This document shows positions 5,909-55,885 of a DNA stretch of 64,000 bases, in pieces. The notes under the pieces were generated by a model, which saw only the letters and a list, made by a program, of their open reading frames with translations, was not told where the DNA came from and searched no databases. The number at the start of each line of letters is the position of its first letter. Within the stretch, counting starts at the first letter, position 1. The stretch spans positions 3,740,985 through 3,804,984 of the forward strand of contig NC_019870.2 in assembly GCF_002234675.1 (NCBI RefSeq). The letters run 5' to 3'. Position numbers and translations under genes: made by a program. The DNA is from Oryzias latipes. Its lineage: Eukaryota > Chordata > Actinopteri > Beloniformes > Adrianichthyidae.

Positions 5909-8900
5909 CTGGTTTAAGACAAATGGCAAAAAAAATAAAATCCTTAAGATCTCTTTTTTGTTGTTGTAGCTGGAGCTGAAGTAGCATCCAGCGCTTGTGC
6001 ATACTTGTGACTTTAATTCTCATCCTTAAAACTTTTAAAAAAATACTTATAAAAAAATACAAAAAACAAATGCTAAACAGTTAAATTCAAGCTAAATAAG
6101 GACAATAGGTGTAAAGCAAATTTACAAAAGAATGGCTGGAAAGATGTAGCGGTACAATGCTAACAATAGTAAAATGCTCGACTCTTCTCTTGACACCACT
6201 TTAATCTGTTTGAACATTGTGTTGAACGTCAAACAGCTTTTTCAGTTTCCCGCTCTGAGCAGTTCATTTCAATCCTCACCGTACCCCTGCTTTTGTCGTT
6301 TACTTCCTTGACTTCTGGACTTTTTGTTTACCCTAAAATGAACCGAACCAAGCGGTGCACATGTCAGATCCCAGATTTCAGGTGAGCTTTCACCCCTAAA
6401 AAAGAGCAAGCTTTCCAAACCAACGGTGAAAATCAGACCTCCCAAAAACGAGACTGAAAAGGAGAGAAAACCCAACCAGCATCTAAAGGAAAGTCTTGGA
6501 AAGTTTTTGAAAATGTCTTGGTACTTGGAAGCAAAATTCTGTTATTGACATTCTGAGCACCTTTCCTGTAAGTGGGCACACTTTTGTTGTCTGCTTCAGA
6601 CTAAACATGTTTTAGGAACCAGGACAGGATACTGACCTGGGTATCCCGTTAGCAGCTTCCAATTCAGGTATCGGATGGCGGCGTGAATGGACACATTGAA
6701 GCTGGATCTGGCCCACGTTTCGCCTCTAAAACCCTGAGCCAAAGTTAACTGTTGCTGCCTGCCAGGACCTGCAGGGAGAAGAGGACAAAGCTGATTGTGC
6801 AGATTTTCCACTTAAAAAAAAAAAAGAAAACTACACAAACTGCCGATCGGAATGATATTTGGCCACCTGTGGACACAAAACATCCTTTGTGGATGTTGTC
6901 GTAACTAATACGGGAGACTAATATGACGCCGTGTTTTATTGCAAACCTCACCATCAGTGTCCATCTGTTTATACTCTCTCCCGCTAGCTTACAGCCCCTC
7001 ACACCCCCAACCAAACATCAGCGATGCAACAAAAAATGGAGCAATACTGGAGGTATCCAGCCGTACAGTTCTGATCCAGATTCCAGCTCAGACGAGGAAA
7101 ACAAAGACGTTTGTGGATCTAATCGTCTGCAAGTGGATGCATCGGAATGGAGCGGAGCAGGGAGACATTGGCCCGGCCCAGCGTATTTTCTACGTCACAA
7201 ATACGCCCTTTTCAAAGGGGATTTTTTTCATTTGTTGCAGATTCACAATGATTTGAATTACAAAATACAAATTTAAGCTTAATTCTCTTTCAATATATCC
7301 TTCATCATCAGAAAAAAGCTACAAAATGCTATAAGAACACCAAAAACACCATTTTGATGAAAAAACAGGTTGTGTCATGTGACGTCTCTCTATCATTAAA
7401 GCAGTTCAGTTAAAAAATCTACAAATGAGTTAAATAACAGTTTTTACAGCTAAACTAAATAATAAATGGTTGCTCTGCTGGTCTCCAGAATGTTCTGCAG
7501 CCTCCTGGCATCTGCTGTTTCTGATGTCTCCCAGAGGTGAGCGCACATGTCTGGCTCCCCCAAAAACAAGAGGCTCTGGCCTTAAGAGCCTTCTCGGGTT
7601 CGTGCCCCGCTTGACCCTGGAAGTATGGTCTTGATTAAGCAGATTTGTGAGCGACTTCGGCCTCGGAGCGCTGTCAAAAGCGAGCACTTCCTCGCATTCT
7701 TCCCCACAGAGTCGAGCTCGCGCTCGGCAAAGCCTGCGTTCCCATCTGAGCCGCTTCCACCGCAGCAACACGACTGGAGAGTTGAAACATTTCCGATCTC
7801 TTTTAACCACAAGATAAAAGCTTCGACTCTCGGTTTAATGACATTAAAGGAAGCTTACTGTTGCTGCCTGCTGCAAATCAACATTTTTAACCCACCAACG
7901 GACGTTTTTAACACAAAAAACTCTTTTATTCCTCTAGGATTTTGGCAGCTTTTCACCCCCTCCTGCTTCAAACCGCAAGAAATACACATTGTGCGCACAT
8001 GTCAGTCGTTCCCTCTTTCAGCAGAGGAGAGAGAGCGCCTCAAGGCATCTGGATCCCTCACAAGAACATCCACCAAATGGCTCTGGAAGGAGCAGCAAAG
8101 AGAAACTACTAGAAAGAGATGAGCGGCCAACAGAGAGGGGGTGTTGGGGTTGAACGAAGGCAAACGAGAGGTTCAGGGACCCCTCAGTGATCCATTAATT
8201 CAGGAAAACCCCTGCAAAGAAAAGCTGGAGCAAAGCGTGTTTAAAAACAAACTCTTTCAATGAATTAAAGAAGCATGAAGGGAAACTACGGGGAAAAAAT
8301 GTGGAGAGTGAGGTCTCAAAGAAAAAGGCTTAGCGAGGAAAGAAAGAAAAATTCCAGCCTGGAACGCAGGAAGAGAAGCTGCCTGTCACTTCTGCGGCCA
8401 ACCATAAAGATTCAAACATAAAACGCGACGGCAGACGCTTGTAAAGCACCAGTGTTGTCCTTTACCCATTCAATAAATCATGCGAGGGATTCAGATGGTA
8501 ATGAGCAGCCGTAAACGTAAACGCCGAGATCAGTAAAGCTGTGAAAAGTCTCATTCCAAAAACTCTAAATGGGAGACTCGACTTTTTCAGAGTTGTGAAG
8601 CCTTAACGCCTTAACGGAGCGTTTTTAGTGGGTTTTTGCCTTAAAAACAGGAGGTTTTACATTTTTCACTAGAAAAGTGAAATAAGTAACAGGAGGATGT
8701 GTCTAATTTCTGTAAATACAGTTTATTTTAATTCAAATGTATATATATAATTTATAGAATTACATTTTAAATACAGCACATTTCAGCTTTTAAGCTGAAA
8801 TGTTTGTTTTTTTTTTTTAAATCTAGCCACAGGGGTTGCAAGCCAGTTGCCTCTGTGCCGGTCCCAAGCCCGGATAAATAGAGAGGGTTGCGTCAGGAAG

Positions 8901-11900
8901 GGCATCCGGCGTAAAAATTGCCAAAGTAACCATGCGAATCATCCACAACACTTTAGACATACCGGATCGGTCGAGGCCCGGGTTAACAACGACCGCCACC
9001 GATGCTGTTAACCTACAGGGTGTCGGTGGAAATTTGACTACTGTTGGTCGAAGAAAGAGGGGAGGCAGAAGGGCCCGTGGCCAGAGAGAGAAGGGAAAAG
9101 GCAGGAACATAGGTTTGAGAATAGGGACTCTTAACGTTGGCACAATGACAGGGAAAGGCAGAGAGCTGGCAGACATGATGGAGAGAAGGAAGGTAGATGT
9201 ACTGTGTGTGCAGGAGACAAGGTGGAAGGGCAGCAAGGCACGTAGTATTGGAGGAGGATACAAACTGTTCTATCATGGTGTTGATAGGAAGAGAAACGGG
9301 GTAGGAGTGATTCTGAAGGGGAAGTTTGTAAACAGTGTTCTAGAGGTGAAAAGAGTCTCAGACAGGATGATGAGCCTAAAGTTAGAAATTGAAGGGGTGA
9401 TGGTGAATGTAGTCAGTGGGTATGCGCCACAGGTTGGCTGTGAGTTAGAAGTGAAGGAGAGATTCTGGAGTGAGTTGGATGAGGTCATAGAGGGTATCCC
9501 CAGAGGAGAGAGAGTTGTTATTGGAGCAGACTTTAATGGGCATGTTGGTGAGGGCAACAGAGGTGATGAGGAGGTGATGGGCAGGTTTGGTGTGAAGGAA
9601 AGGAATCTGGAGGGACAGATGGTGGTGGACTTTGCGAAGAGGATGGAAATGGCTGTAGTCAACACTTACTTCCAGAAGAGAGAGGAACATAGAGTGACAT
9701 ACAGAAGTGGAGGTAGGAGTACTCAGGTGGACTACATCCTATGCAGACGAGGTCATTTGAGAGAGGTTAATGACTGCAAAGTGGTGGTAGGAGAGAGTGT
9801 AGCCAGACAGCACCGCATGGTGGTGTGTAAGATGACTCTGGAGGTCAGGAAGAAGAAGAGAGGGAAAACAGAAAAGAAGACCAAGTGGTGGAAGCTACAG
9901 AATGAAGAAACTTGTGAGGAATTTAGGCAGAAGTTGAGGCAGGTCCTGGGTGGTCAGGATGAGCTTCCAGAGGACTGGGAAACTACAGCAGAGATTATCA
10001 GGGAAACAGGTAGGAAGGTGCTAGGTGTGTCATCTGGAAAGAGGAAAGACGGTAAAGAGACTTGGTGGTGGAATGAGGAAGTACAGGAATGCGTCCAGAG
10101 GAAGAGGTTGGCTAAAAGGAAGTGGGATGTAGAAAGGACTGAAGAAGGTAGACAGGAGTACAAGGAAGCGCAGCGTAGAGTGAAGAGAGAGGTGGCAAAG
10201 GCCAAACAGAAGGCTTACGATGAGCTATATGACAGGTTAGACACAAAGGAAGGAGAAAAGGACTTGTACAGGCTAGCCAGACAGAGAGACAGAGATGGGA
10301 AGGACGTGCAACAGATAAGGGTGATTAAGGACAGAGATGGAAAGGTGCTAACAACCCAGGAGAGTGTACAGAAAAGATGGAAGGAGTATTTTGAGGAGCT
10401 GATGAACGAGGAAAATGACAGGGAAAGAAGGGAGGAAGATGTGGTTGTTGTGGAGCAGGAAGTAGCAGAGATTGGAAAGGATGAGGTTAGGAAGGCTCTG
10501 AAAAGGATGAAGAGCGGAAAGGCCGTTGGTCCTGATGACGTACCTGTGGAGGTATGGAAGTGCTTAGGAGAGACAGGAGAGGAATTTCTAACGAGGTTGT
10601 TCAATAGGATTCTAGAGAGTGAGAAGATGCCTGAGGAATGGAGGAGAAGCGTTCTGGTCCCGATCTTTAAGAACAAGGGTGACACGCAGAACTGCAGCAA
10701 CTATAGAGGAATAAAGTTGATGAGCCACACAATGAAGCTGTGGGAAAGAGTAATGGAAGCCAGGCTTAGGAAGAAGGTGGAGATCTGTGAGCAGCAGTAT
10801 GGTTTCATGCCCCGTAAGAGCACCACTGATGCCATTTTTGCTTTGAGAATGTTGATGGAAAAGTACAGAGAAGGTCAGAAGGAGCTGCATTGTGTGTTCG
10901 TAGATTTAGAGAAGGCGTATGACAGGGTGCCGAGGGAGGAGCTGTGGTACTGTATGAGGTCGTCTGGAGTGGCAGAGAAGTATGTCAGAGTAGTTCAGGA
11001 CATGTATGAGAGAAGTATGACGGTGGTGAGATGTGCTGTAGGTCAGACAGAGGAGTTCAAGGTGGAGGTGGGACTACACCAAGGATCAGCTTTGAGTCCT
11101 TTTTTGTTTGCTATGCTGATGGACAGGCTGACAGACGAGGTAAGACAGGAATCTCCCTGGACAATGATGTTTGCGGATGACATTGTAATTTGCAGTGAGA
11201 GTAAAGAGCAGGTGGAGGAACAGCTAGAGAGGTGGAGGTTTGCTCTGGAAAGAAGAGGCATGAAGGTCAGTCGTAGTAAGACAGAATACATGTGTCTGAA
11301 CGAGAGGGATCAAGGTAGAAGCGTTAGGTTACAGGGGGCTGAGGTGAAGAAGGTGCAGGAGTTTAAGTACTTGGGGTCAACAGTTCAGTGTGATGGGGAG
11401 TGTGGAAAAGAGGTGAAGAGGCGAGTGCAGGCAGGTTGGAGCGGGTGGAGGAAAGTGTCAGGAGTGTTGTGTGACAGAAGAGTGCCAGCAAGACTCAAAG
11501 GAAAGGTGTACAAGACAGTGGTGAGACCAGCTCTGCTCTATGGGTTAGAGACGGTAGCAGTGAGACAGAGACAAGAGGCTGAGATGGAGGTAGCGGAGAT
11601 GAAGATGCTGAGGTTCTCCTTAGGAGTGACCAGGTTAGACAGGATAAGGAACGAGTACATCAGAGGGACGGCTCATGTTGCCTGTGTTAGGGACAAAGTC
11701 AGAGAAGCCAGACTGAGATGGTTTGGACATGTTCAGAGGAGGGATAGTGGATATATTGGTAGAAGGATGTTGGAGATGGAGCTGCCTGGCAGGAGGGCAA
11801 GAGGACGGCCAAAGAGGAGATACATGGATGTCTTAACAGAGGACATGAAGTTGGCTAATGTTAGGGTAGAAGATGTTCATGATAGAGTGAAGTGGAAAAG

Positions 11901-14900
11901 GATGATTCGCTGTGGCGACCCCTGATGGGAAAAGCCGAAAGAGAAAGAAGACATTTCAGCTTTTAAACAAGAAAAAACTTCTCGATCTGCCAATGCAAGA
12001 TATAACTTTTTTTTTTAAATAATTGGGAATCTATTTTTGCTGTAAATTTAAAGTTGGTGCTTTATTTTTGCCAACTTAATAAAATATCCAAATGTTTTGT
12101 AGCTGCTGCATTCATGCATCTTGGGGGGGATGCGCTTCATAGAAAACAAAGGTGTTTTTTCTTCCTTTTATGTCATTTATTTTATGAACTTAAACATTGA
12201 AATAAACAAAAACAGAAAAAAAACACAAATCTAACACAATCTAAAATGATCTCAAGCCATCTACACAAAATCATAAATAATCTAAAACCATCTATACACA
12301 AGATAATAAAATGATCTAAAACCATCTATACATGATCATAATCTAAAACTATCTACACACAATCATAAATGATCTAAAACTATCTAAACAAGATCATAAA
12401 TGATCTAAAACAATCTACACACGATCATAAATGATCTAAAACCATCTATTCACAAGATCATAAATGATGTAAAACCATCTACACACGATCATAAATGATC
12501 TAAAACCATCTATTCACAAGATCATAAATGATCTAAAACAAACTTCACACGATCATAAATGATCTAACCATCTACACACAATCATAAATGATCTAAAACT
12601 ATCTACACACAATCATAAATGATCTAAAACCATCTACACACAATCATAAATGATCTAAAACTATCTACACACAATCATAAATGATCTAAACCCATCTACA
12701 CACAATCATAAAGATCTACTGCTTATTCTTCCTCATTGTCAGAAGGAAGTCCTCCATGCAGACGCTACTTTCTCAAATCCCTCCGACCAACTGTGAAGTG
12801 CAGCAACAGCACTGACTAAACACAACCCCTCCCTCGCTGGTTTCTAACCAGCAACCAGTCCTCCTCATGTGTGGAGCCAAAATTAAAGCCATGTAATGCT
12901 TCACAGGTGCTTTTAAACCTGGATTTTCATGCCGGTCAAATAAAGTTTTTTTTGACAATCCTGAAAGAGAGACACCAGAGAAAACATCTGAGTTTTACTT
13001 TGGACTGTCAAATTATACCACATGTGGTACTGAGATGGAAAACTACTGTACTTCTGGTGGAGAAATCTGAAACTGATTCCTTTTTTTTTTGGTGGATCAA
13101 AAGGTCCACATCTGCTCTGGGTGACCCACTGGGCCATTGTGGTACATCTGTGAGGAATTTCAAAAATTAAAGTGTACAGCAAAGGTGAAGCATTCCCCTC
13201 AAAAGTCAGAAATAGTTGCTGGAACTCCCTTGAGATAGACGTGGTTTGGTCCACAAATTAATAAGTGGTTTGAGAAAGAGTCAGCTCAGCTGGGTTTCCG
13301 ATGTGTGTTCAGTCATGAGACCCGTTTCCAGGAAACCTCCCTACAATCAGAGGTTAATGGTGCACACACACCCAGCCTATGGATTTCAACGAAGACTGAA
13401 GGAAATCAGAGGCGGATTAATGAGGAGTTTTACACATCCCATTAATAAAACCTGTACATAAAAGTCCAAACAAAAGCCTTTAGCTAACTTCAAACTCAAA
13501 CAATAGATCAACAACATAATGCAGGTTTGGTCAAATGTTTTGTAAGGTTCTATTCTTAGGCTCACTTCGCCTTGAGTCTGGTGTTTGAGTTCAGCTTCAA
13601 ACAATAAGGCTTTGATTCCTGTGAGCACGCTGGGAGGAGAGGGAACAGCAGATTTACAACGGCAGGAAAGAAGAATAACATATCACACACAGCATGAGCA
13701 CAGAGGAGGAGGAGGAGGAGGAGGTGAAGACTCTCATAACATGAGGTATCTGTCACCTCCGGCTTCTATAGGCCATCGCTGTCGTCGGCAGATACATTTC
13801 AAATCTTGCTTGGGAGCCTCCACTTAAAGTCTTATGGTTTCTTTTTAGAAGCTTAGCCACTTTTGTCACAACATGAAGTTGATTTTTAGACCCATCAAGG
13901 GACTTTTTCCAAACGCTTTCTGTAGAAATTTAGAGTGTACTCCCACCAGACAATCTGTACTAAGCTGTACTGGAGCACATTTGTTGACCCCATCCAGCTT
14001 TTCTGTGGCCAACACTCACATCACCCAAAACTTTCCTAGTTGAGCCTCTGTTTTACAAACCCTATACAGTAGGTAAACTCCAAGATACAGTATATTCCTG
14101 ACCTTTTATTCCCATTCGCCCTGATACTTGGGGTATATGAAAACAAGTATTTTACTTCTACAAAACGAGAGCAGGTATCGCCTTTCAAACTGTCGCTGCT
14201 CGTCTTTGAGTTTCCTTCCTATGACCAGCTCATTGGCCTTGTGGTTGTGTCGGCTCTGAGACTGGAAGGTCGTGAGTTCAAATTCAGGCCGATTCATACC
14301 CAATGCGACCCAATGGTTGGGAGATCTAAACCACCAAATGGTTCCCGAGCCCAGCTGTGTCTGCAGCTCACCGCTCCCACAGGGGATGGGTCAAATGCGG
14401 AGAAAAAATTTCACACACCTAGCTGCAGGACAGATAATGGCAACAAGCAACTCTGTTGACAACTTTAATCTTAGTCATGGTTGCAAACTGGTGCAGGGGT
14501 TTGTTCTCCTTGTGCATGAGTGGGATAATTGGTGTCTTTATATTGCCCTCAGGTGTGCATGTGTGCGGGGCCCTGCAACAGACTGCCCACTTGTTCAAGA
14601 TGTACCACGCCTTCACCAACCCAACGGTAGCTGCGATAGGCTCCAGCAGCCCTGTGACTCTGAAAGGGATCCAAGGGGGTTTTAAACATGAATGATCTAA
14701 GGAATGTTAACTTCTACCTTCACTTTTAACATGTTGTCAGTGTTGGATGTATGAACCTATTTGTTTGGTTTTTAGTTTTATGTTTTTTGACATCGGTCAG
14801 TGGCCGCCTGGAGGTCGTGCGGTGGCAGTCCAGTGACAGGCAGGTGGCAAGAAGGCAGCAGTGCAGTAACCGACTGATAGGAGGGTCTCCATGTCCACAA

Positions 14901-27672: not shown

Positions 27673-30600
27673 CTGAGGAAAAGACCGAGCCGTTCGTGAT
27701 GAGCGACCAACAAGGTATGCCAAACAAGCGGCCGTGACCTGCTGACCTTGCCGTTGTGCCAGATAGTCTCGTTGCCTTCAGGGTCTATCTCATCTGTTTG
27801 GACGGCCAGATAGGACAGCTTCCTCTTTAGCCCCTTGGCTTTGATTTCTTTAAGCGCTTTTTTGCCGATGAAGTCGGCGGGCTGCTCAAACATAAACGGC
27901 TTCAGGCTGTCTGCTCGGGTCCAGAGGAAGAGTTTAGTAGATGGAATCCCACTTACCTTGTTCAGCTTGATGAAGTAATCCAGACCGGCCTCCAGAGGAT
28001 TGGTGTCACAGTTCATCTGCAAAGATCAGACACTTAAACTCTTAAGTCTACACTCACCAGCCAATTTATACCTTGCTAGTACCAGGTTGGACGCCCTTTT
28101 GCCTTCAGAACTGCCTTAACCCTTGGTGGCATAGATTCAAACATTCAGCAGAGAGTTTGGTCCATATTGACAAGACTGCGTCACACAGTTGCTGCAGATT
28201 TTTCGGCTGCAAATCCATTATGCTAATCCACCACATCAAAAAGGTGATCTATTGGGTTGAGATTTGGTGACTGTGGAGTCCATTTGAGTCCAGTGACCTC
28301 ATTGTCATGTTCAAGAAACCAATCTGAGATGATTCCAGCTTTATGATCCTGCTGGAAGTACCCATCAGATGATGGTACACTGTGGTCATAAAGGGAAGGA
28401 CATGGTCAGCAACAAAATGCAGGTAGGCTGTGGTGTTGAAACGATGCTCAATTGGTGCTAAAGGGCCAAAAGTTGCAATGAAAAAACCCATGCTTTCATG
28501 TTGTTCTGACCCTATACCATCTGCATGTGGCAGCAGAAATGGAGACTCATCTGACCTGACAATGGTTTTCCAATCTTCTATTTTCCAGTTTTGGTGAGTC
28601 TGTGTGAATTGTAGCCTCAGTTTCCTGTTCTCAGCAGACAGCAGTGGTACCCGGTGTGTCTTCTGCTGCTGGAGTCCATCTGCCTCAAGGCTGGACGTGC
28701 TCTGTGTTCAGAGATGCTCTTCTGCAGACCTCCATTGGAACCAGTGGCTCTTTCTATCAGCTGGAACCAGTCTGGTCATTCTCCTCTGACCTCTGGTGAC
28801 AACAAGGCATTTCTGCTCATAGATCTAGAGATAAACGCTAGAGATGGTTGTGGGTGAAAATCCCAGTAGATCAGCAGTTTCTGAAATCCTCAGACCAGCC
28901 CGTCTGGCACCAACAACTGTTCAAGTAAGTCCCCTTTCTTCTCCTTTCTGATGCTCGGTTTGAACTGCAGCAGATCATTTTGACCATGTAACACGCCTAC
29001 ATGCATGAAGTTGCTGCCATGTGATTGGCTGATTAGAAATTTGCATTAACAAGCTTTTGGACAGGTGTGTCCACCAAAGTGGCCACTCAACGTAATTTAG
29101 ATGGATATAAACTTCGATATAAACTAAGTCATTTTTTCGTTTTTCATATATTCAGGTGAATATCACTAATCGGAAATGTTCACAAAAAACAAAAACAAAT
29201 CCATTTGTGTCTCTTTCATATATCTTGTGAATGTAGATGGTAAATATTTGCGTGCATGTGTACCTCGGCCCCCCAGCCTCTGAAGCCCTTCTCCAGTCGG
29301 AGTGAGGCCATGGCGTAGGTGCCAAAGTTGTCAATGCCCTGATCCTTTCCGGCCTCCATCATGGCCCGATACACTGCCACCATGTTCTCCTGCTCCATGT
29401 ACAACTCCCAGCCAAGCTCACCTGAAGACCAAACCAACGACATGCACTTCATAGCAACACGGACTACAGATGGGAACGTATGGAAGCCCACCTCGTTCAA
29501 AATTAGAATGAATGAAAATACGTCTTAGATATTTGTCAGTGATAACATTCTAAACCGCAAAATTTTGTTTTTGCCAACTTTTTATAATAAGTATGGAATA
29601 TTATTTTTTCTTGTTTCCTTAAAGCTTTAAATTATTTACAGAAACTTTTTAACTCTGGAGAACCCAAGGCTTAGATTATTTATTCATTTATTTACTCATT
29701 TTTAATTTGCTGTTTGTTTTTATTTTTATCTTGTATTTTCTTAATTTAAATTTTTTATTTCTATGTTTTAATTTTTAATTTTTTGGCTGCTGTTAATTGC
29801 TACTTCCCAAAATGAAGAAACAAAAAACAAATTTGTTTAATTAACTTTAAAAAAAGAAAACCACTTAAAACTATAGTTTTTACTATAGTTTACTATACTA
29901 CATAATGGATTTACTATACATGCTTGTAAAGGTAAATAAAATGGAAAATAATATCCAAAAATTCCTCTCTAAAAGCTTTACAACTACTTTTTTGTCTCAT
30001 TTTATATTATATTAACATTTTGATGTTGATAAATCCATCATTTTTGATGTAGTTGAATATTTTTCAATTTCCAAAAACTTTTAATTAACTAAAAAGTTGT
30101 TTTATATCATTAAACTTGTTCACTAAATATGGAAAATTGTTAATAAAAGGATTTTTCTTTGAATTTTATAAATTTTTGGTATATTTTCTAACTTAAAACT
30201 TAAAGTCCATTAAAATTTCTATCCACTACCTTTTTTCAGTGAGCCGTTTTTATTGTGCTTATTAATCAACATTTTAAAATATTTAAGATAAAACAGATGC
30301 TTTGGGGACTTCTGAATTTCCATAGAAATGGTCTTTTTTTCTACATTTATCTAAAATACAAAAGATGTTCAGTAATGTTAGTGTGAACATTATCTGTCAT
30401 CTGGATCCATACGTCTGCTTATGTCATACTTGACTGAAAGATCCAGCTTTGCCTTTTAACAACAACCAACTAAAACGTTCTAGAGCAGGGGTCGGGAACC
30501 TTTTTGGCCAAGAGAGCCATAAACGCCACATATTTTGAAATGTAATTTCGAAAGAGCCATACAATAATGTAGTGTCCCTTTCCCACACTGAGGCACGGAG

Positions 30601-33600
30601 ACTTAACCTCTTTTAAGGTTCTTTATTCGGGTTACTGCAGACCGCGACAAACGCCGAACAATTAATTCAGCAACTCCTGATTCTCTCCCGCCGAGACGAG
30701 AGCGCTTCTCCCAACTTTATATTCCCCTGCTCCCGCTGCAGCCCTCCCCTTTCCCTTATTCGGCCCATAGCTGAACCCCATTGGTCCAAACTACCTAACA
30801 ACAGGCTGAGCGACAGAACTGAGAGCCAATCAGCTCTCTGCTTGATGCGGTCAATGAACTCCAGAACTTTTAACGCGGCCCAACAGCCACCCAACTCAGT
30901 CCGCGACAATATGTTTAAAACTAAAATACAAGTGAATGTGTGCATTTGATGTAATTTCAACCTTTTTAAAGTACAATAAGTCTGTGGATTCTTTTTAATA
31001 ACATTGTTATGCTGTTTCTAATAAATGATGAGTATTTCTCGTGGTAGTTTTGCTGATGGTCTAGTCTGGTTTACGTGGTGAGTTTCTGCTTCATGCAGGC
31101 GTTGAGACTTTAAACGTGATCTTAGGTTGGTATGAATGTTTTGTAGATGTGAGACAGACTGCTCACATGCGGACCTGGAGCCAAACACACACTCACACGC
31201 TGCAGTGAGTGACAGGCAGTGGGTTTTACCTATTTACAATCCCTGCGCGATTCACCTGCTGCCTGTCCCCACAACACCTCAGCCCCACCCTCTGCTTTCT
31301 CCCTCACACATCCCGTCCCCGCAACTGCGCGCTCTTTCTCAGAGACGGGAGCGCGCAGTTTTAGGCACGGCAATTCACAGGTTTCCGGGTGGTACAAACT
31401 CTGTGAATTAATAGACAATTTTAAACTTATACTAGTGCTGGCGCAGATTTGTCTCTCTAAGCACCGCTACTACTGCGCGCCTCTGCCATCGCATCGCGCA
31501 CGAGAAGGACTGGTCTAATGAAGAAAAAAAATTTGAATTAAAGATTTGTCTGCGAGCCACATGTGACCATCAAAAGAGCCATATATGGCTCGCGAGCCTT
31601 AGGTTCCCGACCCCTGTTCTAGAGGAACTCGAAATGATGGCAGTACCGGTGTAGGAGATCCTGATGGCTCGCACAGGAACACCAGCCAGCTGGACGGTCT
31701 TGCATTGCAGGAATTTAAACGCGGAGTCGCTTAAATCCTCGTCCGTCAGCTTTTGTAAAACGCTCCTGGAGTTTGGTCCTGCGATGCCCAACACGCCGAT
31801 CTGGTCTGTGACGTTACTGATCTCCACGTCGTATCCACGTTCTGCTTCTGCTTCAATCCACCTAAAGTTTCAACCCACAGAACAGAAAGGTCAAAACTCT
31901 GTTTTTATCACCGCCTCTGGATTTAGGCTTTTCGTGCACAGCATCAGCTTGTGACAGCTAGAGGTCGCCACCGAATGGAAGAGCTGCATCTGGTCTCTAT
32001 CAGGCTTTTTTTTAATAAAAGAATCCCTGGGAAGAAAATGGTGCCTTTCAATTGGAGCAAATGGAGGGGTGTTGTGTCAACAGCTGCAGTCCGGTTTCAA
32101 GTTTCCACAGTAGAGCTCCGCCTCATTTATGCAGCACGACCCTCTCAGCTCTGACCTGCTTGGTAGACTTTCCCTCCAGTGTCAACACTTTCACCCCAAG
32201 GCACAAAAAAAAATATAGCACGTAGACAGTTACTATAAACATGACAAAGTAACTTAACTTTTACCAATCCGTAAAGCTGTAATGTTGTTTATAAATTGGT
32301 ATTTTATTAAATGAGTCCGAAAAGTGAAAACATTTCATTTTTTAAAAAGATTTTATGGCAGGTTGGATGAGTCCGCATTTAAAACTAAAGGACAACAGTC
32401 TGCAACTTTTTTTGGATGTCTACATTTTAATAAATGCTTAAAAGTCCCACTCTGATTGTCCCTTGATCTATTTGTGAAGTGTTCCCGATTATGCCATTTT
32501 CATCCAAAATAATAAAAACAGACTTTTTCTAGGACATAGTTTCTGCAGAGCAGCAGGAGTTCATTCGAAATTTGTGTGTGAGTTGCTCTCAGTTTAAGGC
32601 CGTGTCACGCAGCCACTCCGTACATTTTGCACGGATGAAAATTGGTCAGACAAAAATATGTGTAGAAAAAGTGAGAGAAGTTGTGGTCTTCACGTGAAAT
32701 CTTCACGAATGTATCGTGAATGAACCATGTTAAAAGCACAGAAGTACGAATAAACCACGCAAAGAACACGTATATCAACGTAAAGCATGAACTGTGCGTG
32801 ATTATTGCGCTGTTTAAATGAAAATGATCAGTGATTTCTGCGTCAATTACGTAATTTAAATGTGGGTGCAGTTGTACATCAGTGGTACATCTATGGAGTT
32901 AATTCAGTCTCAATAATCAGAAATGCACACAACCGGTTTTACAAATGCACACGCTCCGATTCACAAATGTCATTTTATGCAAACGTGAAAAATAAATTCG
33001 GAAATACACACCCTGTGTTTCACAAACACACAGATTGTGTTTCACAAATGCACACTAAATGTTTTACAAATGCACAATAAGTGTTTCTCACAAATGTGCA
33101 CACTGTGTTTCACAAAAAACATTTTAGAAATTCACAATAAATGTATCAGAAATACACAGTAGGTGCTTCACAAACATGATTTTTAGGTACACATGTGATG
33201 TGAACTCACAGATCATTCGAATTGCAGAATGTGCATTCAAAATCCCGTTCTCGTTTGTGAATCTCCCCGTGTGTGTGAGAGATTTTTCTACGGTGAATAT
33301 TGAGACTCATCTGACGGAGCGGGTCAACTAATGTCACCATTGGCTAGTGAATCTGTCAATCAAACTCATCGGGAAAGCAGGCGGGTTCGCTTTTAGCCAA
33401 TCGTATGGCCCCTTACACTTTACGCTTTCTGCGGGTGGCAAAAGCCCCGCCCATATTTGATTCTGTACCAGTCGGTCGTTAGCGTGTTAGCCTTAGCATG
33501 GCTTGTCGGTTTATTGCCTTCGGTTGTCAAAAATGACTGGCTTGTGCAACTTTTCAGTGGACCTGGGAGCAAGGCAACAGTGGTTGAATGCAGTTGACAT

Positions 33601-36600
33601 TGAATCCATCGAACTCTGTACTGGTCATGAGATTTGAAATGAATGTTTCACTCGGGATTGTTTGTACGTTATTCTCTTAGCTTTCATGCTCGGTCATTTC
33701 AACACTCAGACACGGTTTTGATCATATGAAGGTGGAGGAGAAAAATCTTCAACTTCCACAGGTTTTGTGGAGAAACTGGCATCACTTTGCTCCGTACCAT
33801 GCAGTGGGACTACATTACCTCAAGTTCATCTCACTGTCAATCCCAGATACCCAATACACCTCCCCTGCTCAGCCCGAAGTCACTTTGCTTGACCTTAATT
33901 TTATTTTTTTAATAACTCAAATGTCATTGATTTTATATTGTAACCATATACATATACACCTCTTGGCCAGGTCACCCTCGCAAAAAAGATCCTCATCTCT
34001 CTGGGTTTTATAGCTGGTTAAATACTACACAACAAAAGATGGTCATAGAACAACAAAGTGCAAACATTCACCCTTTATTGCAGAGTAAAATTCAGTGAAA
34101 ACATGGACAGATTAAAACATCAAAATTTAAGCAAATGTGGGATCTCTACTGATTTGAATTTTATTTAAAGTGGAACTAATTTTCATAACTTCCTTACATA
34201 CAATGAAGTCCCTTGAACAATACAGCAGTATTGATTTGAACTCTGTCTTGCCCCGCTCAGTCTCTCTTCTTCTGTATGTAATTATGTCGCCTAAATTAAG
34301 TTCTAAACACACTGGACAGTAAAGATGTAGGTCCACTCCCAAACGGTCTGAATTCCACAATGGATTGATGTTGTCTTGCAGTTCCAACATTTGTGGACCC
34401 AAAAGGGGACTGTCCCATACCAGGACATTGATCCCAGGATGAGGTTCAGTCATGGATCCACTCTCCTCCCGTTCAATCTCTGGAACCAGCATACCCTGAC
34501 AAAAAAAAAAGATACTGTTTATGAACAGCACTGTTTTTTTTGTGTTTTAGATTATGTAGGAACAGTGACCGACTAATAATAACTTATATTGTTGCTTGCA
34601 GGCAGACCTCATATCTCCATAACTGTTTATAATTTGCAAATAAGTGAACCTTAACAAAGTAGTGACATTAGTACATCTGATGGCTCATAATGCCATGCAT
34701 TATGAGCCATGCGAAGGGGGGTCTAAGGGCAGGGATGCCAGTATAGCTTAGTCAGTTTGTTAGTTCATTTTAGTATTTTTCTATTGAACTCTTTGTATTC
34801 GTGATCCTTTTGATTTCATGTTTTACTTCGAAGCCCATCGAGACGACTGTTGTTGTGATTTTGGGCTATACAAATAAAATTGAAATTGAAATTGTGATGC
34901 ATTTTGAACTTGCAGATGTGCTATTATTCCTACAAACAAACAATTTAGGGAAATTGTTTGCACCACACAACAATAATCCTTTTCATTCATTTTCGATGAA
35001 AATTCACTGTAGTCATTATGATTTCATGATACTCTTCTTGATACTTTCCACTTTAGTCAAACTGCACACAAATCAGTTGTCCAGTACAGTGAGATTAAAT
35101 AAAGCATTTACCCGGGGATCAGAAACAGGGTTCTGGGTCAAGCCCAACTGCCACAGCTGATTTGGTGTCATGCTTTGCTCCGTCCTGATTGGATGGCTGT
35201 CCCACACGTCACTAAAGACATCCAAACTGGCCTGAATGTGTGGTAGAAAAATGTAATGGCAGCAGAATACGTGATGTGACTGATATTGAGCAAGTCTTGG
35301 TCCTCAGGAGAGTGCAGGATGTTGTAATATAAACCAGTAACACTCACGAAGACATCACACCAGAGGGGCTCAATCCTGTATTTGGAAAAAAGCAAAAAGA
35401 AATATTATATTGTCAGATTTATTTTTAATACATCATTCACTTTTATGTATCAGGGCTCCAGACTTAACTTTTTTCACTAGGAGCACAGTGGCCCCCAACT
35501 GAAAGTTTTAGGGGCACAACCAGAAAATTTAGGGGCGCATACCGTAAATCAACATTCTAACCAAATCTACTAATTTCCACTGTATTACAAATAAATACTT
35601 TAACAATAGATGCAGAAATTACAATGTGCTGTTTCTAATTCAGTGTCATATTTTATTCTGCACTTTTGAAGATGCAACATGAAGGTAAACTGACAGCACC
35701 ATCGCTGTCACGACAGTACAACTAAGTAAAAATAGTAAAAAAAATACCATACTTAAAATAATAATAAAATAAAAAAAAGTTTTTAGTAACAAGTGATTAC
35801 CGTAGTAACCTTTCGTAATTTCACAGTTTCAAACAATACTTAAATGTATGTAAATATTAGAGGATGGAAATTCATGTTGGTGACACCAAATAGGTTCAGC
35901 CAAGATGCACAATAAGCGTGTTTGAGATCACCCAGATGGACGCAACACTGCACAGATCACCTGGTGTGTGACGTATATTTTTGTTTTTGCTCCAACATCA
36001 CCTGTCAATCAAAACAAAAATATCACGAGAAAGGGGTGAGAGCAAGACCCCAACCTGAGCGAACGCAGCTGGAAATTTAGTATTGAATTGACTAAAAGCT
36101 GCCCTACAGACTAAAAAACAATGCATTATGGGACATGCGTCCTGATGGGTTTTTTGTAGTTCACTGATCAATTAAAATAATTTAAAATATCAACTGATTA
36201 AAAAAAGGCTACATCCATTACAAAACATTAAAATAATTATAAAAGATGTAATATCACAGATCATACTTAGGGGGAGAGGCAAATTAAAACTAAATTGAAT
36301 GTTAAGGACAACTCCTAATTCCTGGTCTCTTTCAGTCTCGCTGCAGCTTCGATTTCATGCGAGTTTGAGACCCCTGCTGTACACTCTAGCACTGGTACAC
36401 TAGCTGCAGGTCGGAAGAATGAATCAATAGTTCGCTTGCTCATAGCTCATACGCACATATCAGGTTGTGATGATATTTGTCTCCGTTTCCTTCCCACGGA
36501 TGTTTACGCGCGCTCGATTATCTCTAGGCCACGCCCCTCCACATATTTTAGCCACTTGCAGTGACTTTCCCTATTCTTCTCACACGCATTGGCCGCCTCA

Positions 36601-39600
36601 GGCATCACTCAATGAAACGCGAGTGTGTGCTCGCGTGTGCTCCAGTCTCATGAGTATTCGCGCGAGTGTGTGTGTCTGCCTGCGTGCGTGTGCGCTCGCG
36701 TCTCATTGATGATTTCATCTCTCATTTCATCGATCATTGACGTGCTCCTTTCATGTTTAATGTATAAAAAATACGGAGGGTGGAGGAGGCAAATTTACTG
36801 GTAGCACATGTGCGACTGGGTGTAAAATTCAGTCGCACACTCAAATTTTGGTCGCAACATGCGACCAAATGGACGCAGTCTGGAGCCCTGTGTATATATT
36901 AAAGCTTTTTAAAACTAGGTTCAACTCACCGTTGATTGTGTGTACACTTTTCCCACAATGAAGCCGTTTGTGTCAGTTGTACGTACTGTGAGCATCAACT
37001 CAGCTATGCCCACATTTTCTCCTCTGATCTCCTCTCACCCTGACAATAACATGAAAATCATGTCTCAAACACATAATTACAAATGCATCGGCAATACGGT
37101 ACACATCAGTTTAAAATGTAATGTTCTTATGTATGATGCCAATAAGTAGAATTTCTAGGTTAAAAAAATTGCAGGAGTGGGTTACATGTATCACTGGGGA
37201 AAAAAATGAGGTGAGAGAGACTGTTAAGGGGGGGGGTAAATGTTATTCATGAGGGGAAAGTTTTAGAGTTGCCTTTGTTTATGGAGAGGAGTCTAAAAAA
37301 AGTAATTTTATTTTTGTACAAATAACCAAGTACTTATACTGCCTGATATGTGAATAAAAGATTTCTTTATGAATAACATGAATACCTCAGAGGAAAGCCA
37401 TAAACGTTCACAGCGTCACTGAAGAAGGCCAAGTGGGTGTCTGCACAGTTGTTGTCTGCTATCTTCTCAGGTACAGGATACATGGAATACAAGTACAAAT
37501 ACTTTCAACTGACAGATGTTTACGGCGGCAAAAATGCTAAATTCCCAATTGACAGGTAAAACAGTAATACAATAGGATGATAAAATATGAAATAGAATAG
37601 AATAGAAGGGTATTTAATAATCCCTGAGGAAATTTTTTTTAAATGGCCATCTTAAAAAAACACATAAACACACATGCATTACAAATAGAAATATCACAAA
37701 ATAAAAAGATTGATAAAAAAAGGTAAATAATTGGAAAATCAGTGGGTAAAATTAAAAGAAATTACTTGTAAGATGCCCTGCCAGAGAGTTGTATTGCCTG
37801 ATGGTATGAGGAACAAAAGATTGTCACGCTGTCATGCTTCAGTAATTCCTAGAGAATAAATAAAAACACAACAAACATGGATTAGATCATTTAGCTGTCT
37901 GATCTTAAATTACATAATTTTCAAATATATGAAAGGGGAATTTTTTTAAAACACTCTTGCTATGATTACTTGAGCTTGTAGTAAAGAACAGCTTTAAAAA
38001 AAAATCAGAGACTAGACACTGATCACAGGAAGCCTGTGAGTAATACTTACAGTAACTTCTACTCTAATCACTGTTGACAGCTGATTTCTCCCATCCGCCC
38101 TTTCTGTGACTACTTATTGACTACAAAACAGCCTAAAAACATAATGTTTGGGATTCTTGTCATTACGTCATTGGAAGTAAAGAGATACGGGGATTTTAGT
38201 GGCTGTCACTCTGACACAATCTCACAGGGCTGGTCATCACAATGAATACGGGTTCTAACGTTAGAAACTTAATGAGGCTTCTTTCATTCAACAGTGGATT
38301 CATGTCTGTTATATTTAAAAAATGCCGTTTTCATGATTGTCACATGAATTAACTTCTTTGCACAGTCGACCCCGTCTTAAAGTCTGGGTTGTGAAAATGC
38401 TGTGTCTAACTTTAACCCGGATCGCGTTTACATAAAGGCAGCACATGGAACAACTAGCTAGTTAGCATAGCATAGCATCAGTGTTTAAACAAATCGCCGT
38501 CTCCAAATCAATACTTTTTATTAAACTTTCTTTGCTGCTGTAAATCCGGCATGCTTTTCCCTTAGTTCCATCTGAATCATGTTAAGAACCTACAGATCAT
38601 TGGCTATAGACGCTAGCTTGAACCGACACCGGCTTGAACTTCACTCACACTCACAGGCAGACACAACTTGCACAGGCTAAGCAAAACAAAGCTGAGCTAA
38701 TTTGCGGTGGGGGTACTCTGCAAACGACTCGGCTGCAGTGTTCATAAAGCATTCACACATGTCACTTGGCAAAGGAGAACGCTTCAACTTAGTATTCAAT
38801 AACATTACAGGACGTACGACGAGGGAATGATCATATAAATGCATTACTTACGGGCTGAGACTGATCCCGTTCAGAAGACCTCTCCGCCATGTTTGCCGCC
38901 CGCGTCCTCCCAACTGCTGTGCTGAACAGCTCCCCCCCTCGTCACTTTGAAAGTGAGGAGTGTAAGGGACCATTCGATTGGCTAAAAGCGAACCCGCCTG
39001 CTTTGCCGATAAGTTTGATTGACAGATTCACTAGCCATTGGTGAGATTAGTCGACCCGCTCCGTCAGATGAGTCTCAATATTCACCGTAGAAAAATCTCT
39101 CACACACACGGGGAGATTCACAAACGAGAACGGGATTTTGAATGCACATTCTGCAATTCGAATGATCTGTGAGTTCACATCACATGTGTACCTAAAAATC
39201 ACGTTTGTGAAGCACCTACTGTGCATTTCTGATACATTTATTGTGAATTTCTAAAATGTTTTTGTGAAAAACAGTGTGGACATTTGTGAGAAACACTTAT
39301 TGTGCATTTGTAAAACATTTAGTGTGCATGTGTGAAACACAATCTGTGTGTTTGTGAAACACAGGGTGTGTATTTCCGAATTTATTTTTCACGTTTGCAT
39401 AAAATGACATTTGTGAATCGGAGCGTGTGCATTTGTAAAACCGGTTGTGTGCATTTCTGATTATTGAGACTGAATTAACTCCATATACATCTGTTAGGCA
39501 CTTCGACAAACGATGAAAGCAAGAAACACTTATGAATTACATATATCATGCATGTACCATGAAAGACCGTAATTTCATAAATGCAGAAAATGTACACAGC

Positions 39601-54539: not shown

Positions 54540-54547
54540 TAGAATAT

Positions 54548-55877
54548 ACTGAGCCCGTGTCCTGACATTAAGATATAAAAATATATCTTGTTCCCACAGA
54601 TTAATATCTTGTTCCCACAGATTATTATGTCATTTGCACGAAATACTATTGCGTTCCCACAAGATACTATTGCGTTCCCTCAAATACTATCCCGTTCCCT
54701 CGAAATGATTAACTCGTGCAAACACAATAATTATGTCGTTCGAACGCAATAATTAATCCGTTCGAACGCAATAATTATTCACGTCATAAATCATTCACGC
54801 GGATATGCTCTCTGTACGATGGCAAAAGCCGCTTTCAGCGGTAACTTCCGTGTCTCTGTGACCCATATTTGTTCAAAAAAGGAACATGAAAAACAAAAAT
54901 GATCACTTTATTACTGTCTCAATGAATATAAGAAAAATATCAAAAGATTTATGATAACTAGGCTGCTTTGTCATACGATAGCTCTTGCTAGGCTACTACT
55001 AGCTCCGCCGCAGAGCTCTTTGATGTATGCCGGCATTTGGGCAACTGGCTGGTCGGTTGACAGACAGCTGATATTGTAGTTTAGGGTCGAATAGGAATAA
55101 TAATATTCAGGACTTGTCTTTTATTAACTTTAGCAGTCAGTCGCTTTACATTCGAAGGCTATTAGGCTACATGCTAACTGACTAGCCGATCATATCCTGT
55201 TATTAATTTACGTCATAGATTTACAGCAGATACCTTCACATTTCTGTCTGTGTGTGTCTCATTACATTGCATTGAAGACACGGAGGATGTTTAGAGAACA
55301 GATTTATTTATTTCAAAAAGCACAAAAGCATCCATCGTATTCACGTTCATTCACATGATGATGATGATCTGGTCCGCCCTCAGTCATCTTGCTGCAAAAG
55401 CCGCTTCCTGCCGCTACTTCCGTGTCTCTGTGAGCATTCAATAGGGGTAAAAATATAAGCAAGAATGGTCGATCTGTTATTGTCTCGATGAAAATCTGAA
55501 AAATATCATATTAAGCTGGCTGCTACGCCTAAAGCACTTACCTTTAGCTTTTTTTTTTTTTTGCACTTACCTTTAGCTCGTAGCATAACAACAATAGCAG
55601 TACGTCACGTTTCCCAGCATGCCTTGCTGCCAATCATTGGTCTTGTTGTTAAACCTTGGTCACAGGGACACGGTGATTGGCCAATGATTGGCAGCAAAGC
55701 ATGCTGGGAAACGTGACGTACTGCTATTGTTGTTATGCTACGAGCTAAAGTACAATAGTATCTTGTGGGAACGGAATAGTATTTCGTGCGAACGACATAA
55801 TAACCTGTGGGAACAAGATATTAATCTGTGGGAACAAGATATATTTTTATATCTTAATGTCAGGACACGGGCTCCGT
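54548..55877. mobile_element. 1.3-kb TIR element with 8-bp target duplication
   Basis: 125-bp terminal inverted repeats (54548-54672 and 55753-55877) starting ACTGAGCCCGTGTCCTGAC, with about five mismatches. Flanks TAGAATAT (54540-54547) and AAGAATAT (55878-55885) fit an 8-bp duplication with one change. Subterminal GTTCCCACA(A)GAT words repeat. An internal duplication (54821-54960 versus 55395-55515) and a long hairpin are inside. No transposase. hAT is the likeliest superfamily by duplication length only. Confidence 0.8.
55571..55750. repeat. Hairpin with 70-bp arms
   Basis: Arms 55571-55640 and 55681-55750 are inverted copies with one mismatch, separated by a 40-bp loop. Confidence 0.92.
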
Positions 55878-55885
55878 AAGAATAT

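Follow-up and report, generated by a model that had tools for sequence, protein, structure and literature searches.

How does a DNA transposon come to be present in many near-identical copies when the transposase gene is broken in every copy examined? The question is raised by a 6.6-kb element of medaka (Oryzias latipes) that lies at positions 32892-39485 of a 64,000-nucleotide stretch of genomic DNA, here called the window and analysed at its full length (C12:3740985-3804984 in a source genome of 734 Mb and 25 contigs). A sequence-only reading of this DNA had described a two-gene transposon similar to the IS3EU superfamily. We consider it probable (at roughly 85%) that the window element is a copy of a non-autonomous IS3EU-type cut-and-paste family, which multiplied after its transposase had broken and was most likely moved in trans.

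A large family with shared lesions

The element carries terminal inverted repeats (TIRs, or arms) of 527 bp and is flanked at both ends by a perfect copy of TACATC, its target-site duplication (TSD; 32886-32891 and 39486-39491). When aligned, the arms at 32892-33419 and 38959-39485 agree in 515 of 527 columns, with one 1-base gap; the element ends are TATGG..CCATA, and the six bases outside the two ends would match perfectly by chance about once in 4096. The duplications and arms of about 527 bp had been proposed by the sequence-only reading, and both are borne out.

The exact 38-bp terminus occurs 279 times in the genome (131 + 148 occurrences, against 0 for a reversed control), and these perfect termini imply that the family numbers at least about 140, whole elements and remnants together. 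Among 100 terminus places listed, 34 inward-facing pairs are less than 20 kb apart, of which 22 span 6.0-6.75 kb. The best 40 of 929 candidates from an arm search were scored, all 98-100% identical, and the first 20 of these (window excluded, lying on 14 contigs) were compared as copies. Both arms are present in all 20, between 6-bp duplications that are exact in 18 and carry one mismatch in two and whose letters differ from copy to copy, which is what the earlier reading expected of other genomic copies. Seventeen are 6340-6420 bp long, and the other three 6219, 6615 and 7551 bp. With the window included, the 21 copies have a mean pairwise identity of 98.1% and diverge from the column majority by 0.6-1.3%, one copy excepted at 3.4%.

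The varied duplications around all 20 copies, together with their spread over 14 contigs, make it extremely improbable that the family multiplied within segmental or tandem duplications rather than by transposition, although four termini on C5, about 16.0 kb apart and in one orientation, suggest that some copies sit in a tandem block.

All 21 copies have the same lesions, namely two frame breaks in the transposase, a missing block for the first catalytic D and the same nested hAT-like insertion. Because copies that are 98% identical share these lesions and the insertion, we conclude that breakage of the transposase preceded the spread of the family. A query running across one exon frame break points the same way genome-wide: among the best 150 of 485 candidates, counted by eye, 133 rows start at query position 31-35, after the break; another five, with an internal stop, have their start at 13 or 17, and the remaining 12 begin at position 1 and read through. 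Of the 12, eight share 72-89% identity with the protein of the window, stops being present in some, and four share 54-55%. The alternative, recent activity of an autonomous two-gene IS3EU element followed by independent decay of each copy after insertion, would explain why splice sites, and gene starts pointing inward from the two ends, can still be recognised, and would suit an excess of third-position changes among singletons (given below); the identical frame breaks, missing first-D block and nested insertion in 21 of 21 copies, and the 133 rows that begin after the break, make it very unlikely, and we rejected it on the shared lesions.

The features of the element are as follows, in order along the window and with reference to a related element on contig C19 (the C19 relative, described in the next section).

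32886..32891, no strand: left target-site duplication, TACATC
32892..33419, plus strand: left terminal inverted repeat, which begins TATGG and holds imperfect repeats of about 22 bp
33498..33663, plus strand: broken first exon of the second gene, with THAP-like pieces including LCTGH and FTRDC; the donor at 33664, and hence the end, is predicted
33749..33798, plus strand: piece on the second-gene strand, matched at 84% identity in the C19 relative
34127..34495, minus strand: C-terminal exon of the transposase, with stop; in frame between two tested anchors in 20 of 21 copies
34705..34891, no strand: insertion, about 190 bp long, that only the window copy has among 21 aligned
35112..35375, minus strand: transposase exon starting RIE and holding the catalytic E; internal frame break in 21 of 21 copies
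35451..36890, no strand: nested DNA transposon with termini CAGGGCTCCAGACT..AGTCTGGAGCCCTG, bordered by a TGTAT duplication of 5 bp; present in all 21 copies
36930..37039, minus strand: transposase exon with the second catalytic D; frame break ahead of the donor in 21 of 21 copies
37385..37465, minus strand: transposase exon
37593..37830, no strand: unmatched stretch; here the C19 relative has a helix-turn-helix and first-D exon, within 1.85 kb
38852..38890, minus strand: transposase exon 1, with donor GTAAGT
38959..39485, minus strand: right terminal inverted repeat, which ends CCATA
39486..39491, no strand: right target-site duplication, TACATC

The transposase gene reads inward from the right arm. 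Its ATG (38890-38888), just inside that arm, opens a 13-residue exon that ends at a GTAAGT donor, and exons of integrase type follow on the minus strand from 37465 to 34127. Joined, the exon pieces match the Pfam integrase-core family rva_4 (PF24764) at E 3.5e-39, covering profile positions 42-187 of 194, and single open pieces match it at E 1.8e-05 (just under the cut-off) and 2.1e-13; no other Pfam family matches the transposase pieces. The multi-exon transposase with its first ATG immediately inside the right TIR is as first read from the letters, and its integrase type held up in the Pfam check that had been suggested for it. A search of NCBIfam gave no match, and a PDB sequence search with the transposase returned five meaningless matches only (E 0.61-0.96). 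For comparison, a generic rva_4 protein scores 3e-85 against rva_4 and 7.3e-06 (below the cut-off) against rve.

The second D and the E of the catalytic triad are kept. The first-D block, sought with a query taken from that generic protein, was not found in any of the 21 copies (best E 2.0); with the same query it is found at all 20 of the other rva_4 loci of this genome that were compared. None of the 21 copies combines a complete DDE triad with an open transposase. Genome-wide, rva_4 gave 858 candidates in the source genome, of which the best 150 were scored, and none in 14 control genomes; no relatives were found in viral contigs or prokaryote genome contigs, nor in viral contigs with the terminal 20-mer.

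At the other end, an ATG at 33498 on the plus strand, 79 bp inside the left arm, opens the frame-broken first exon of the second gene, so that the remnants do face inward from both ends, as claimed. The layout of two inward genes in a two-gene transposon therefore stands; a working pair does not, as both genes are broken here. Likewise, the outer boundaries of 32892..39485 hold, and the interval is not one element throughout. The nested transposon at 35451-36890, with CAGGG..CCCTG ends, is a separate insertion whose site is empty in the C19 relative, and we take it to be hAT-like from its terminus; the stretch at 34705-34891 is a further insertion, which none of seven other loci compared directly there has.

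Some terminus places elsewhere in the genome were recorded as observations in their own right. The four C5 termini (C5:25017376, 25033369, 25049392 and 25065381) look like a tandem duplication that includes one element end. An inward-facing pair 1461 bp apart (C2:20605961-20607421) may be a short derivative that arose by deletion; two more pairs, of 5723 and 5724 bp (C4:156814 and C6:303768), look like one subfamily. Pairs 15.8 and 16.5 kb apart (C4:1369159-1384919 and C6:1941312-1957796) each have a broken-exon copy inside and look like family copies with large insertions.

Relatives and probable movement in trans

If the family spread without a working transposase of its own, a relative may have provided one. 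The C19 relative, assembled by joining two loci (L050 and L052), matches the family at 55 of its first 60 terminal bases; it is 94% identical over the arm, 82 and 86% over core-exon blocks, 76% over a block of the C-terminal exon and 72% over another block. Its core exon is unbroken (rva_4 103-187, E 6.2e-29). An upstream exon gives weak helix-turn-helix matches (best 8e-5, under the curated cut-off) and a match to the start of rva_4 (2-22, E 0.031, below cut-off), with no finger among the Pfam families matched; IS3EU transposases have no HHCC finger upstream of the core, and the window family has lost the exons in question. In comparison, the family lacks the 1.85 kb that holds the helix-turn-helix and first-D exon. 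A copy on C3, whose left end is 95% like the family over element positions 1-1163, has a core exon that passes the break yet contains a stop.

The opposite strand of the C19 relative encodes the C-terminus of a HECT domain (PF00632 266-304 of 306, E 3.2e-6). Two other rva_4 families (L049 and L051), taken over 8 kb each, also have a convergent HECT gene (E 1.3e-9 and 1.8e-12), which is thus present in all three relatives examined over at least 8 kb. The family has no match to the last 3.5 kb of the examined C19 stretch, where the HECT end lies.

Because all examined copies are broken, the terminus of the relative is near-identical and the family is uniform, we infer that a transposase from a relative acted in trans, a conclusion drawn from sequence comparison. 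The ancestor would have been a two-gene element, with an integrase-type transposase read from one arm and a second gene, probably HECT, from the other. This element would then have been stripped of its helix-turn-helix and first-D exon and of most of the second gene, have accrued frame breaks and have received the hAT-like insertion; the resulting wreck, retaining both 527-bp arms, would have multiplied. The transposase of a low-copy relative with near-identical arms, possibly the C19 relative or one like it, would bind the arms, perhaps via the repeats of about 22 bp, to which their position in the arm points (33002-33116 in the left arm; period 22, 5.1 copies, 71% matches). The element would be excised and joined to staggered cuts 6 bp apart, giving the 6-bp duplications.

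Several observations weigh against this account. The compared copies are the best arm matches, so an intact copy with slightly different arms may be missed. The C19 relative may be incomplete, having been examined from one arm only, with its far arm outside the stretch covered; four of the five second-gene-strand pieces scanned from it, all but the one with the HECT match, have no Pfam match; and it contains 1.8 kb with a LINE-like frame that is absent from the family and present also in a relative on C18 (L053). Further, in three exon pieces that are open (34286-34495, 35115-35276 and 37388-37465), singleton substitutions across the 21 copies fall 3, 7 and 14 times at codon positions 1, 2 and 3, or 2, 4 and 12 times without CpG sites, and an equal skew is seen in only 3 of 245 overlapping control windows. 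This excess, which comprises 24 events in an unplanned analysis, would be unexpected had the pieces ceased to code by the time of the spread; chance, exchange with coding relatives or a residual coding role may account for it.

The second gene and the THAP question

THAP domains occur in the P and Kolobok superfamilies, and the first exon of the second gene has a THAP-like look. All 21 copies have this exon disrupted by a frame change, to which most add a stop. The frame break between its first two pieces is found in 20 of 21; the remaining copy (L022) reads on, but only in a frame without AFGC. Downstream, the similarity to the C19 relative covers the piece at 33749..33798, past which that relative has other sequence, including its HECT C-terminus. 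The HECT domain had no match in those left-end pieces of the window copy that were scanned.

Three THAP-like pieces lie in order within about 170 bp, and two of the three motifs are rare in the 64 kb. The exon of the window, read through its break, was scored along with shuffled versions of itself, of which 0, 0, 5 and 20 of 500 reached its score for THAP1, THAP2, THAP11 and the P-element THAP; for the C3-copy exon as encoded, 0, 12, 28 and 30 of 500 did so for THAP11, THAP2, the P-element THAP and THAP1. These results speak against the view that the remnant has no relation to THAP, its likeness being accidental, and that it either opens the HECT protein or is some other exon. That view is a serious one, to which we give a little less than even odds. 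Pfam THAP (PF05485) was not matched by any form tried, the C3-copy exon included, and a PDB sequence search with the second gene had no match. A four-sequence THAP profile, scanned with tolerance for frame changes, scored 33.4 at this exon, ranking eighth on the plus strand, and each of six random sequences reached a higher maximum (35.0-48.0). A distance of six residues separates the first two cysteines, more than is usual in THAP domains, and the motifs were written after the sequence had been seen. We therefore keep a THAP identity solely as a suggestion, given the ordered motifs and shuffle scores and despite the non-significant Pfam and profile scans.

An IS3EU-type element and its meaning

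IS3EU elements have TA..TA termini and TSDs that are usually 6 bp (PMC10045372), and IS3EU already figures among the repeat classes reported from fish genomes (PMC12763893). Fungal IS3EU families carrying a TET/JBP gene (TET+ families) end in TAYGG..CCRTA and have transposase and alpha-kinase genes in opposite orientation with the TET/JBP gene between them (PMC12730594). The window element has a 6-bp TSD, termini of the TAYGG..CCRTA type and an integrase-type DDE transposase core, which in IS3EU is related to IS3/IS481; rva_4 is probably the IS3EU transposase. Because these termini, TSD and transposase type are those of IS3EU, we file it as a defective, non-autonomous IS3EU member and not as a new superfamily, an assignment made from published descriptions of the superfamily. 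The likeness to IS3EU drawn from the letters in the sequence-only reading was thus sound; its remark that such a gene pair is uncommon in a vertebrate element needs the qualification that an oppositely oriented second gene is also found in the fungal TET+ families and is not unusual for IS3EU as described there. What sets the window family apart is its 527-bp arms, a multi-exon transposase broken in every copy examined and a nested hAT-like insertion in all 21 copies; the medaka relatives, for their part, carry a HECT gene in place of the fungal alpha-kinase and TET genes.

Membership of another superfamily, whether of integrase type (Ginger1, Ginger2, Polinton) or THAP-bearing (Kolobok, P, ISL2EU), was also considered. 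All use DDE/D enzymes; Polinton TSDs are likewise 6 bp (PMC10045372), and a THAP domain has been described in ISL2EU, of the PHIS group (PMC4482050). We attach very little probability to this reading, given the 6-bp duplications with TATGG..CCATA ends and a transposase that matches rva_4 alone among Pfam families; Ginger1 has a TSD of 4 bp and Ginger2 one of 4-5 bp (PMC10045372), where the window family has 6 bp. ISL2EU, also a DNA transposon with two genes, is comparable in having a THAP domain, but there the THAP is in the transposase, the partner has a YqaJ exonuclease domain, and TSD and transposase differ (PMC4482050). GingerRoot, from a club moss and supposedly animals too, resembles the window family by description in its 6-bp TSD and mostly TA..TA ends, and is not separated from IS3EU in the tree of the same source (PMC10045372). 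Medaka Izanagi is also non-autonomous with a degenerate THAP remnant; it is 1.3 kb long, is assigned to the P superfamily and has a published TIR unlike the window terminus, and as the identity of the element it is ruled out by its 8-bp TSD and 27-bp TIRs (PMC2820524). In the IS3EU literature available to us we found no detailed dissection of a vertebrate IS3EU element and no linkage of IS3EU with THAP, the two words co-occurring only in unrelated lines.

Around the element, open frames read like arylsulfatase B, DMGDH and BHMT; if these likenesses are right, it lies in a DMGDH intron. A 1015-codon open frame on the plus strand (8878-11925) reads by eye like a LINE endonuclease and reverse transcriptase, and is followed by a tandem array of 31-bp period (12184-12767). 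An open frame on the minus strand (28249-28707) resembles a fragment of a Tc1-type transposase. An inverted-repeat pair (54547-54672 and 55753-55878; 126 nt, 96%, 1080 nt apart) is perhaps a second small DNA transposon. An Rfam scan of the window gave nothing at gathering scores.

Interest centres on two points: a large family spread although its transposase was broken, and its relatives have a HECT gene as partner. The nested insertion, with its visible empty site, orders the events; the low-copy relatives may be, or resemble, the source of the family; and movement in trans of large gene-carrying wrecks is testable in this fish genome. The convergent HECT gene in all three relatives asks what role a ubiquitin ligase has for a transposon. 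One tentative and rather doubtful answer is that vertebrate IS3EU elements are two-gene transposons with a convergent ubiquitin-ligase-like partner that begins with an exon for a THAP-type DNA-binding module; this protein would attach to the arms or the transposase and steer ubiquitin-dependent control of transposition, and the window family would have lost the ligase and kept the arms and the THAP exon.

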